From a virus, in the IMG/VR virus record IMGVR_UViG_3300021088_000020, positions 1 through 44,705 of that record: DNA of 44,705 nucleotides; one strand, given 5' to 3'. Within the stretch, counting starts at the first letter, position 1; every line of letters begins with the position of its first letter. The notes under the pieces are model-generated. The model had not been told where the DNA came from and did no database searches. It worked only from the letters and a program-made list of their open reading frames with translations. A program made the translations under genes and the position numbers. Positions 1,902 through 44,278 of the stretch are shown here, in pieces.

Positions 1902-2108
1902 ATGAAAAATTTAAGTGAGCGGGTTAAGCGGATTATCGAGCTCAAGCCAAAAGAATCTAGCGACGTATACGACCATCTTTGCGTGGAGTTTGAATCACTC
2001 GCCAAAGAGATTCACAACGAGGCATTGGAAGAAGCGATTGATGCGTGCCGTGGTGATTGTGATGATCACGACAGGCACTTGCATGAAATCAGAGCTTTGA
2101 AAAAATGA
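1902..2108 (+). CDS. Small acidic helical protein
   Basis: This 68-residue product has a strong ribosome site (AAAGGAG). It is charged and mostly helical, with a Cys/Asp/His-rich stretch near the end. Its stop overlaps the start of the cytosine methyltransferase gene as ATGA at 2105, so the two are probably translated together. Function unknown. Confidence 0.75.
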   Translation: MKNLSERVKRIIELKPKESSDVYDHLCVEFESLAKEIHNEALEEAIDACRGDCDDHDRHLHEIRALKK

Positions 2109-2880
2109 AAGTAGTCGGACTTTTCAGCGGCATAGGTGGTTTGGAACTCGGCTTCGAGCGAGAAGGATTTGAGGTTGCAGCGGTATGCGAAATGGATACG
2201 TTTTGTCAAAACATCCTGGGAAGGCATTTCCCATCAGCGATTCAGCTCGGAGACGCGCGCTTGTTCTCGTTGGAGGATTTCCTTGCCAAGGTCTTAGTGT
2301 CGCCGGACCAACTCGTAAGCTCGTCGGGGCCAGTGAGCTCTGGTACGAGTTCCGACGGATCATCTACGAATCAGCGCCGGGATGGGTCGTCGTCGAAAAC
2401 GTCGGCCACACGTGGCGAAAATGGGTGCCCGAAGTGCGGCGTGACTTGTGGCTTCTGGGATACGCTAGTGTGCCTCTTCGAGTCCGAGCCTCTGACCTGG
2501 GAGCGTGCCACGAAAGGTCGCGGGTCTTCATTGTTGCCAACCCCGACCGCAAGTTCATACGGGAATTCGCGCGGTGGTGGAGCGGGCAGGGTCGGCAAGG
2601 TGCGGAAGAGTTTAAACAATCTTGGGATTCAACACCCCGAAGATTGGGAACGGATGATGGGGTTCCCGATTGGGTGGACCGAAGGCACGCGCTCGGAAAC
2701 GCAGCCGTTCCCCATATTGCTTCCCTCATCGCTAGAGGAATTAAAGCTGTGAGCACGGCTCAATGTGCTTATTGCGGCGAGACTTTAGTTATAGGGGGAT
2801 GGTCCGCATCACACATCAAAGAATGCGAATCAGAAAACAGGTCCGAGCATTACCGCCTGGGTGGACCAGGCGAATTATAG
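2105..2880 (+). pseudogene. C5-cytosine DNA methyltransferase split over two frames
   Basis: The ATG-start frame holds motif I (FSGIGGLELGF, residues 7-17), motif II (VCEMD) and LGDAR near 2258. The catalytic motif IV (GGFPCQG, Cys codon 2284-2286), motif VI (VVENV, near 2390), RVFIVANPD and the C-terminal HALGNAAVPH (motif X) lie in the other frame, which runs to the stop at 2880. About ten residues that usually separate LGDAR from motif IV are missing, so a small deletion with a frameshift is the simplest reading. I see no slippery heptamer at the join (2255-2275). The first frame nevertheless stays open to 2752 and contains LLPTPTASSYG and RMMGFPIGWT, which are also seen in phage methyltransferases. 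Programmed shifting, an assembly error or true inactivation all remain possible. Confidence 0.75.
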
Positions 2881-12622: not shown

Positions 12623-13729
12623 GTGGGAAAAGTAGTCTGGGGCGATAGGCCGCGAGTCAATTTCATTCTCAAAAAGCCGAACGAAGACGAAGGTCGCAAG
12701 ACTTTTCAGATTCTAAAGCGCGTCGTGAAGTCCGGGCAAAAGCCGACTCATGAGAAATTTACGAATGAGCGACTGAAAGCCATCAACTCTTCTCTCGTTG
12801 CCGGCGTCCAATCCGAGAACGCGTGTTTGTTCCAGGTCCGAGAAGTCATTTCCGATCTGATGAAGATCGAACGCCGGAAACTTCCGGCCATCGTTCACAA
12901 CGAAGAGAATCACCGAATCCTGCAAATGTACTGGGACAAGGAGTACAGCATTCGCGACCTGACCGCCCCTGAGGCTGCCTACGATCGCCTTAAACGTGCG
13001 ATCTCCGCTGTCGGAAGCCTGTCCCTCTATTCCGCTTCCAGGGAGGCGCTACAGAAGGCCGTCAATCTCAAATACAAAGACAACCGTCAGCGGGACATCG
13101 TCGCTGCAATCAACCAACTCCTATCTTTCATCGGGCGCGGGATTGAACTCAACCGTCGAGCCGAAGTAGTCGAAGACGTTTTCTATCTGACACCCGAAGA
13201 ATTTCAGAAAGCGCAACGATTCGTTGAAGATCCGATGGATAGACTGCTTCAGAAAGTCGCCTTTCACTCTGGATTGAGGACGGGAGAGAATTTTGCTCTC
13301 AATCCAGAAAGTGCGGCCGGGGCTCAATTCTTCTCGCAATATCAGATCGACCGATGGCTGACGAAACGCCACACCAAGAGGAAAACGAGCAAACGCCGGC
13401 GCATCTACATTCTTCCCGGGGGAGAGGACGCTTTCAGACAGTGGTCCGCAATTCCTCAAAAAGTAAAAAACGCAATGAGACTCCGCCGCCACGCGGACAT
13501 TTTGAAAGAGGCGTGTCGTAAAGCGTTCCCCGAGCGCGAAGACAAGCACATCGTTTTCCATGATTTGCGACATTCCTACGCCATTTACCTCGTCAGCAGG
13601 GGAGTCAACTTAACGCAGGTCGCGCAGTGCCTAAATAATAGCTATGCCGTGTGTGAGCGTTACTATTCAGGTTTCGTTTTGAAGGACGAAACAGTAGACT
13701 CAATAGCTAGAATTATCGGGAATTCGTAG
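12623..13729 (+). CDS. int: Tyrosine recombinase (integrase) 1
   Basis: The 368-residue product starts at a GTG after GGGG. The catalytic domain is from about residue 185: SGLRTGE (216-222) has the first Arg, HDLRHSY (313-319) the His-x-x-Arg box, and ERYYSGF near 345-351 the nucleophilic Tyr. The second His of the usual 'LGH' box is replaced (CLNNS), which is tolerated in some integrases. It would integrate or excise the phage at a short core site. The gene ends three bases before a complete tRNA-Leu, a common attachment target, which supports an integrase role. Confidence 0.88.
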   Translation: MGKVVWGDRPRVNFILKKPNEDEGRKTFQILKRVVKSGQKPTHEKFTNERLKAINSSLVAGVQSENACLFQVREVISDLMKIERRKLPAIVHNEENHRILQMYWDKEYSIRDLTAPEAAYDRLKRAISAVGSLSLYSASREALQKAVNLKYKDNRQRDIVAAINQLLSFIGRGIELNRRAEVVEDVFYLTPEEFQKAQRFVEDPMDRLLQKVAFHSGLRTGENFALNPESAAGAQFFSQYQIDRWLTKRHTKRKTSKRRRIYILPGGEDAFRQWSAIPQKVKNAMRLRRHADILKEACRKAFPEREDKHIVFHDLRHSYAIYLVSRGVNLTQVAQCLNNSYAVCERYYSGFVLKDETVDSIARIIGNS

Positions 13730-13732
13730 CCC

Positions 13733-13824
13733 GCCTCGGTGGCGAAATTGGTAGACGCATGCGACTTAAAATCGCAAGCTTCGGTAAAACGGGCGTGCCG
13801 GTTCGATTCCGGCCCGAGGCACCA
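13733..13824 (+). tRNA. tRNA-Leu (anticodon UAA)
   Basis: A full 92-base tRNA with encoded CCA. The acceptor stem GCCTCGG pairs with CCGAGGC, the anticodon stem TGCGA/TCGCA encloses CTTAAAA (anticodon TAA), the long variable arm is that of a class II tRNA, and the T-arm is GCCGG-TTCGATT-CCGGC. It reads UUA and UUG codons. It starts three bases after the integrase stop, and its CCA is the first part of the 35-bp repeat. Complete and probably functional. Confidence 0.95.
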
Positions 13825-43165: not shown

Positions 43166-43272
43166 TTATGAACTGGATTTGTCATCCGTGCGGCCAGTCT
43201 CACGCCATCTTCCTTGAGCAATCTGATTGCTATGAAATTTGGCTCCGCGAAAACCAATGGTCGGGGATTTAA
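43162..43272 (+). CDS. Small CxxC protein between excisionase and integrase
   Basis: 36 residues, started by ATGA overlap. It has WICHPCGQSH near the start and LEQSDCYEIWL, so a possible small metal site. It ends two bases before the integrase start. Function unknown. Confidence 0.55.
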   Translation: MIMNWICHPCGQSHAIFLEQSDCYEIWLRENQWSGI

Positions 43273-43273
43273 T

Positions 43274-44278
43274 ATGGAAACTCAACGTAGAACTTTATCC
43301 GATGCCTTTGACCTTCTTTTGAAAATTCAAAGCTCGCAGGCAAGAAACACTTTCGCTCAAACGCGATGCTCTGTTCAGCACTTACGTCCGTGGTTTACTG
43401 AAAACGCGCCATATCTCGATACATTCGAGACTGACTTTGAAGAAATCTGGGCTATGTACCGGGCCGCTAGCGCCGGCAAGATGACGTGGAAGGGTAAGCC
43501 CAGAAAGCTAGAACACGACCGTCGCTATTTAGTAATGGGTTTGAAACGCGCCCAAACGAAGGGCTGGATCAAGCGCAGCTTCACTAAAAAGGACTTCGTT
43601 CTGAATGAAGTTCACGAGGAGATCGGCCGCGCTCTCTCGGATGACGAATCGAATCGTCTTTTAAAGTCGGCTGAGTTCCATCCTAGGACGCGCATTCAGA
43701 TCATGATGGCTTTGACCATGGGAATGCGACACGGGGAGATTCTGAAGCTCAGAGTCGAGGAAGTGAACCTCGAGAAGCGCATTATCAATCTAGACGCAGC
43801 TAGGGTGAAGACTCGCAAGCCGCGCAAAGTTCCTATCCCGATTTCAAACCCGGTGCTCTCTGAACTCACCCAGCGCGTTCGGGATGCCAAAGGCACCTGT
43901 GTTTTCCCGATGGAGTCCGATGCGAATCGTCCACAGGTCGAGAACCGGCACCAGTGGAACAAGGTTCGCCGCGATTCCGGCGTGAAGTGCCGCTTCCACG
44001 ATCTCAGACATACCTGGGCGTCGAACATGATCTCGATGGGAGCACCTCAAGATCACATCGTGAAGGTCGGCGGTTTCACCGCGCAAGTCATGAGTCGCGT
44101 CTACTCGCACATGCAGGAAGACGCTCAAAACAAATTCAGGAGTGCATTCGATGAAAGATTTGGGAACGGAAATTCTGAACAAAGAGCCGTACGCACCGGC
44201 AATCGTATTCTGCTTAGCGATTGGCGGGATCGCATTCGCGGTGGCTTACACCGCGTGGTGAGCAAACTCGCGGCTTAA
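43274..44278 (+). CDS. int: Tyrosine recombinase (integrase) 2
   Basis: ATG 43274 is preferred: GGGG precedes it and the preceding open frame lies in the small gene before. In the 334-residue product, MGMRHGE (149-155) has the first Arg, KTRKPRKVPI the Lys region, FHDLRHTWAS (241-250) the His-x-x-Arg, and MSRVYSHM the Tyr near 277. The usual 'GH' before it is 'GG'. The N-terminal part is a core-binding domain (FAQTRCSVQHLRPWF). Paired with an excisionase-like gene, it is a plausible phage integrase. A different type from the one at 12623-13729. Confidence 0.9.
   Translation: METQRRTLSDAFDLLLKIQSSQARNTFAQTRCSVQHLRPWFTENAPYLDTFETDFEEIWAMYRAASAGKMTWKGKPRKLEHDRRYLVMGLKRAQTKGWIKRSFTKKDFVLNEVHEEIGRALSDDESNRLLKSAEFHPRTRIQIMMALTMGMRHGEILKLRVEEVNLEKRIINLDAARVKTRKPRKVPIPISNPVLSELTQRVRDAKGTCVFPMESDANRPQVENRHQWNKVRRDSGVKCRFHDLRHTWASNMISMGAPQDHIVKVGGFTAQVMSRVYSHMQEDAQNKFRSAFDERFGNGNSEQRAVRTGNRILLSDWRDRIRGGLHRVVSKLAA
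44151..44261 (+). CDS. Small membrane protein nested in the integrase gene
   Basis: ATG 44151, with AGGAG nine bases upstream, gives 36 residues in another frame than the integrase that contains it. It has a polar start (KDLGTEILNKEPYAP) and one membrane segment (AIVFCLAIGGIAFAVAYTAW). The integrase tail over this part is not needed for the catalytic residues. Real expression is uncertain. Confidence 0.5.
   Translation: MKDLGTEILNKEPYAPAIVFCLAIGGIAFAVAYTAW

Follow-up and report, generated by a model that had tools for sequence, protein, structure and literature searches.

A temperate phage carries the motifs of a cytosine-5 DNA methyltransferase in two overlapping frames of one gene, which probably encodes a two-chain enzyme

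The gene at positions 2105-2880 of a 44,705-base IMG/VR virus record (the window, i.e., the whole stretch of DNA analysed), assigned to a temperate tailed phage with integrase, portal, and terminase genes, carries the motifs of a cytosine-5 (C5) DNA methyltransferase split over two overlapping ORFs, called here frame A and frame B (Table 1). All C5 motifs (I FxGxG, IV PCQ, VI ENV, VIII RxR, IX, and X GNxxxP) are present across both frames, and the complete set is found in neither. Sequence comparison makes it quite probable that the gene specifies a two-protein (alpha/beta) C5-methyltransferase, the chains of which come from overlapping frames of one gene, like M.EcoHK31I. An earlier note on this DNA had read motif I in frame A and motifs IV, VI, and X in frame B, which profile searches confirmed, and had left three options: a deletion-frameshift, a shift-coded gene, or a two-protein gene. 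The last one is best supported, because conserved and functionally different segments share bases and no single ribosome pass delivers both.

The match to the PF00145 profile is divided between the frames. Residues 1-60 of frame A match profile positions 1-59 (E 1.6e-8) and residues 27-119 of frame B match positions 64-161 (E 1.1e-15); the break at 59/64 therefore places the split of the gene between motifs I and IV. Frame A residues 1-57 match phrog_363 and residues 52-159 match phrog_1008, and because of the latter match frame A past residue 52 is, by its sequence, not noise; relatives of frame A are 57-62% identical over its full length. Frame B matches phrog_363 positions 113-317 (E 3.6e-30) over the whole catalytic part. 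Frame A also contains TPTASSYG and the end of this frame reads ..DWERMMGFPIGWTEGTRSETQPFP.., while motif X of frame B, at 2692, is read as DDGVPDWVDRRHALGNAAVP. Beyond motif X the alpha frame continues at 2749-2880 with CAYC..HIKEC. This segment, which may be a small zinc-binding tail, has no overlap with frame A.

Table 1. Features of the methyltransferase gene in the window
Feature	Position	Strand	Frame and remarks
ATGA	2105-2108	+	frame A start overlapping the stop of an upstream 68-aa ORF (1902-2108)
Frame A, 215 aa	2105-2752	+	beta-type ORF; its N-terminus, with motif I, is of alpha type and is joined in frame to the beta chain
Beta chain content of frame A			CxxC segment, target-recognition region, motif IX
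Motif I, FSGIGGL	2123-2143	+	beta frame; AdoMet site
Candidate alpha-frame start	2171-2187	+	GAGG, 10-nt spacer, ATG at 2185
Frame B, 231 aa	2185-2880	+	alpha-type ORF; motifs IV, VI, VIII, X, without motif I
TTTCCCA heptamer	2227-2233	+	phase right for a -1 shift out of frame A into frame B; 0.23 expected by chance, hence weak
Motif IV, GGFPCQ	2272-2289	+	catalytic Cys; alpha frame in the window, beta frame in 10/10 relatives
Motif VI, VVVENV	2386-2403	+	alpha frame; catalytic Glu
GCPKCG	2423-2440	+	Cys pair in a conserved Cys-rich beta-frame segment
Motif VIII region, HERSR	2509-2523	+	alpha frame
Target-recognition region, TPTASSYGNSRGGGAGRVGKVRKSLNNLGIQHPE	2540-2641	+	beta frame; near-invariant in relatives, the variable position being the third beta codon position
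Motif IX, MMGFPIGW	2654-2677	+	beta frame
Motif X, LGNAAVP	2692-2712	+	alpha frame; begins 38 nt past the motif IX start

Several other features of the window were recorded. A second methyltransferase-like ORF (814-1329; phrog_111, E 3e-13) lies ~0.8 kb upstream of the split gene. Two tyrosine-recombinase-like integrases are found at 12623-13824 and 43214-44278, and the tRNA-Leu (TAA) gene that begins 3 nt past the first of them is a likely attachment site. Both contig ends (1-280 and 44562-44705) consist of the same 54/60-nt tandem repeat, which reads GGYLSIYSQATLDAPKLETV in frame 1 at the contig start; either a circular genome or a break of the assembly within the repeat may account for this.

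The earlier note had also suggested that two named C-terminal types of methyltransferase are frame-shifted views of one another. This proved correct, as PHROG 363 is alpha and PHROG 1008 is the +1 frame of the same DNA, and the pairing was seen in the window and in loci of unrelated phages. The library holds PHROG 363 and PHROG 1008 (“DNA methyltransferase”) as separate families, whereas here they are two frames of one gene, and at the DNA level, where a failure to align had been named as the observation against this idea, the two families are the same DNA. The two methyltransferase-like ends described in the note are both real and are read from the same DNA, but they do not represent one motif twice: the RMMGFPIGW end is motif IX and the LGNAAVP end motif X, with starts 38 nt apart in different frames.

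Neither a DNA-level match nor a match to the frame A protein was found in 50,697 phage records, and relatives were therefore taken from IMG/VR; scans of genome contigs returned no relative. The ten loci used (L001-L006, L010, L017, L020, and L037) are ~57-65% identical. Both frames are open through the overlap in all ten, the spacing from motif VI to motif X is exactly 306 nt, without indels, in the window and the nine measured relatives, and motif IX of the relatives lies 38 nt ahead of motif X. The distribution of motifs differs from that in the window. In 10/10 relatives motif I is in the alpha frame together with VI, VIII, and X, and the beta frame has motif IV (GFPCQDLSVAGKR, with PCQ), GCPSCG, the recognition region, and motif IX. 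Motifs IV and VI are 114 nt apart in the window vs 89 nt in the measured relatives, with a 3-nt insertion in L006.

Constraint was tested on the indel-free 306-nt overlap of ten measured sequences. Synonymous-codon shuffling of either frame destroys the other one: shuffling of alpha gives 16.5 expected beta stops vs 2 observed, both past motif IX in L002, and shuffling of beta gives 25.6 expected alpha stops vs 0 observed. The third frame has 33 stops, matching expectation. A pairwise test that preserves shared ancestry was also made, in which only differing codons were re-drawn and the observed similarity had to exceed at least 95% of randomisations. With the alpha codon differences fixed, beta identity was 0.67 vs 0.57 expected, with 0 stops, and 90/90 ordered pairs passed; the reverse test of the alpha frame gave 0.66 vs 0.53 expected, again in 90/90 ordered pairs. 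The third frame passed in 58/90 pairs with about 3 stops per sequence, so a residue of the pairwise signal is independent of the frame, yet the two coding frames stand out clearly.

The constrained frame alternates along the gene of the relatives, being alpha at motif I, beta at motif IV, alpha at VI-VIII, and beta in the recognition region. Variability at alpha codon positions 1, 2, and 3 (equal to beta positions 3, 1, and 2) is 0.32, 0.28, and 0.55 at motif I (alpha-type), 0.51, 0.27, and 0.16 at motif IV (beta-type), 0.32, 0.20, and 0.41 at VI-VIII (alpha-type), and 0.34, 0.14, and 0.15 in the recognition region (beta-type). The catalytic Cys of the relatives is therefore under selection in beta, where identity at motif IV is 0.75 vs 0.43, and the alpha frame over the same bases is an open, poorly conserved linker. 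Lost constraint and random stops, the signs of a pseudogene or an assembly error, are contradicted in the ten relatives by strong constraint without stops; their arrangement cannot be decay or error, which the I/IV break of the window could be.

For this break alone, decay or a sequence error in an ordinary nested alpha/beta gene is a possible, although rather unlikely, explanation. Motif I in beta combined with motif IV in alpha occurs only in the window contig, and the rest of the gene fits the ordinary nested plan, motif VI following motif IV in frame. However, the distance from motif I to motif IV, 149 nt in the window and 145 or 118 nt in the measured relatives, compared with 180 and 177 nt in the outgroups L049 and L050, indicates a frame-changing shortening throughout the lineage; neither frame of the window contains a stop, and a concatenated tree places the window as the sister of the ten relatives (SH-aLRT 92, bootstrap 88). 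The deletion-frameshift option of the earlier note thus holds for the N-terminal break, where a deletion or frameshift between motifs I and IV occurred in the lineage, but it is not the whole explanation. Both outgroups have a GCPSCG-type beta consisting of the recognition region and motif IX, and all alpha motifs (I-IV-VI-VIII-X) in one frame. By these spacings, a shortened I-IV stretch, not a multiple of three, is common to the lineage. A window-like state that lost 4 nt before motif IV and 25 nt after it would have motif I back in alpha and motif IV left in beta; in this order of deletions the window-like state would have come first.

Structure prediction gave a C5-methyltransferase domain for alpha of the relatives (AlphaFold; mean pLDDT 68, pTM 0.70, with 70-85 over much of the domain), and Foldseek matched the model to 3g7u, M.HaeIII, HhaI, and DNMT1 with E about 1e-6 and modest TM-scores of 0.42-0.46. 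Confidence is low at residues 56-82, exactly at the site of the missing motif IV. The beta profile of the relatives matches HhaI 74-107, which contains motif IV (E 7e-8), and the C-terminal region of DNMT3A at motif IX (E 0.002). As a single chain in AlphaFold, beta did not fold (pLDDT 34).

A further issue is how both chains would be translated. Frame A of the window is likely translated by coupling to the upstream 68-aa ORF, and frame B possibly starts at ATG 2185 behind GAGG, a weak Shine-Dalgarno match. The start signals of the second frame are weak and unconserved in the window and the relatives inspected, and no conserved internal start or Shine-Dalgarno sequence for beta was found in the relatives. 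GGAGG followed by TTG, which occurs within the motif I codons of several relatives, was rejected as a beta start since it is forced by the motif itself. Synthesis of a single polypeptide by programmed frameshifting is improbable, although for the window taken by itself a shift-coded gene is possible; the shift would lie near 2227-2262 in the window (frame A to B) and near motif IV in the relatives (alpha to beta). The TTTCCCA heptamer lies in the right phase for it, but given the number expected by chance (Table 1) it is a weak indication, and the layout of the relatives differs from that around the heptamer. Moreover, one shift cannot put the recognition domain and motif IX (beta) before motif X (alpha), and motif IX and the pre-X segment DDGVP..VDR share bases, so that both cannot come from a single pass. 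The relatives would need two opposite shifts, and their segments RSSLLYDLIG (beta) and RPDWIVIENV (alpha) overlap.

Returning to the two-chain enzyme, the small chain of M.EcoHK31I is reportedly encoded within the gene of the large chain, in another frame. In the general plan proposed here, alpha would be the catalytic Rossmann domain (motifs I, IV, VI, VIII, and X) without a target-recognition domain, and beta, nested in the +1 frame, would comprise the recognition domain and motif IX. Alpha would bind AdoMet and supply most of the catalytic core, beta would recognise the target, and the two would associate into one enzyme, on the model of M.EcoHK31I and M.AquI. Deletions between motifs I and VI may have moved pieces between the chains in this lineage: in the relatives motif IV would be contributed by beta, with I, VI, VIII, and X remaining in alpha, and in the window motif I would be fused to beta, with alpha beginning at or before motif IV (ATG 2185). 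In each layout the two frames together carry every motif once. Both chains are presumably translated and assembled into an active methyltransferase, the probable role of which is to mark the DNA of the phage against restriction by the host. We are inclined to accept, with less assurance, a broader reading, in which one active site is built by two chains off the same bases (the beta-frame Cys of motif IV and the alpha-frame Glu of motif VI ~90 nt downstream), small deletions moved motifs between frames with the enzyme staying functional, and heterodimers encoded in two frames are the rule in a large class of phage C5-methyltransferases annotated as single-chain.

M.EcoHK31I and M.AquI are known two-chain C5 enzymes (PMC3404938). 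In M.EcoHK31I (and M.EaeI), motif IX is located on the small chain and the other motifs on the large one (PMC3404938). Compared by description (PMC3404938), the window gene resembles M.EcoHK31I in having two chains with motif IX apart from motif X (frame A vs frame B). However, the predicted recognition domain of M.EcoHK31I is on the large subunit (PMC3404938), whereas here it is in beta, and the large chain of M.EcoHK31I carries I-VIII and X, whereas motif I of the window and motif IV of the relatives are on the chain with motif IX; canonical nested phages such as L035 and L049 do have the large-chain layout of M.EcoHK31I. M.AquI likewise makes one C5 enzyme from two chains, but its beta contains IX and X, and here X is in alpha. 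In L129 and L132, alpha ends soon after motif VIII and the +1 frame holds a PTP-type recognition repeat array with IX and X, an M.AquI-like overlapping split. In phage Lily (g62/g63), a beta ORF nested in the +1 frame of alpha is annotated as “g62 internal gene”, but the layout is the ordinary one with I, IV, VI, VIII, and X all in alpha. A precedent for the split in the window is M.MpeI divided into chains 62-279 and 280-61, which puts motif I on the recognition-domain chain and retains partial activity (PMC5944983); the split or circularly permuted M.MpeI and M.SssI constructs differ in being engineered and in sharing no bases. M.MpeI split at motif VI showed no complementation (PMC5944983), which, by analogy, cautions against the IV/VI split of the relatives. 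The literature searched yielded no precedent for the latter; on phage methyltransferase overlap it yielded reviews of M.EcoHK31I/AquI and the case of an HNH insertion lying out of frame, which is unrelated.

The ordinary C5-methyltransferases of phages of Paenibacillus, Lactobacillus, Porphyromonas, Mycobacterium, Klebsiella, Sulfitobacter, and Pseudomonas, and likewise those of two plasmids, all have alpha in one frame and a beta ORF (recognition region and motif IX) nested in the +1 frame; the 38-nt IX-X offset was found in most annotated phages. The frame chosen in annotation varies, being alpha in L029 and L031, beta in L033 and L034, and both in Lily. For a survey, 80 viral loci were chosen on alpha alone, from the top of a ranking by similarity to one nested-type alpha; 74/80 have a canonical alpha by the script rule, 68 of them with motif X in alpha, and the six outside the rule, L129 and L132 among them, also have a nested beta. 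In 65 of the 68, motif IX lies in the beta frame, a fraction that describes the subfamily with short alphas lacking a recognition domain, as the sample is ranked by similarity; it is in the alpha frame in 0 and in the third frame in 0, with 0.6 expected. The +1 frame of these loci contains 10 stops vs 240 expected, the third frame 869, and the 38-nt offset was found in 50/68 scored pairs within 200 nt.

These numbers bear on the view that the second frame is a functionless by-product, in which a conserved alpha forces an open and similar-looking +1 frame. The +1 frame is indeed open for ~145 codons past PCQ even in C5 methyltransferases of other layout, and openness was for this reason discarded as evidence of coding. 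However, synonymous shuffling of alpha yields ~240 stops and 0.6 motif IX signatures against the 10 and 65 observed, the recognition region varies most at third codon positions of beta and not of alpha, and the alpha chain is without motif IX altogether; a by-product is thus scarcely conceivable.

Layouts differ elsewhere, e.g., in the LQGFPDxW..MGNAV type. In L051-L126 (LQGFPDxW..GNAV type), 42/58 motif IX-X blocks are in the +1 frame relative to motif IV, and the downstream open frame usually begins 10-107 nt ahead of the upstream stop, a sequence pattern suggestive of a conserved overlapping split or a +1 frameshift in the recognition region. The long alphas of L026 (1299-2789) and L013 (2001-3100) have several repeated recognition units (WPTPxASD..) in the +1 frame, which looks like overprinting of multi-specific target recognition. 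E. coli plasmid records of ~92-110 kb gave an alpha tblastn match to a gene annotated as a Dam family adenine methyltransferase, and they may contain a hidden C5-methyltransferase segment.

Double-frame reading appears to be common in phages, and the layout of this lineage appears to extend a known but rare enzyme plan. If the two-chain reading is correct, then the annotation of many phage “DNA methyltransferase” genes covers half of the enzyme, since gene callers choose one frame, and cloned alphas would be expected to be inactive alone, without the recognition domain and motif IX. Recognition domains could then be searched for in the +1 frame, and DNA phages would be a source of numerous clean pairs of overlapping genes, each pair coding for the parts of a single enzyme. 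The lineage with swapped motifs would be a natural experiment on how finely a C5-methyltransferase can be divided without losing function.
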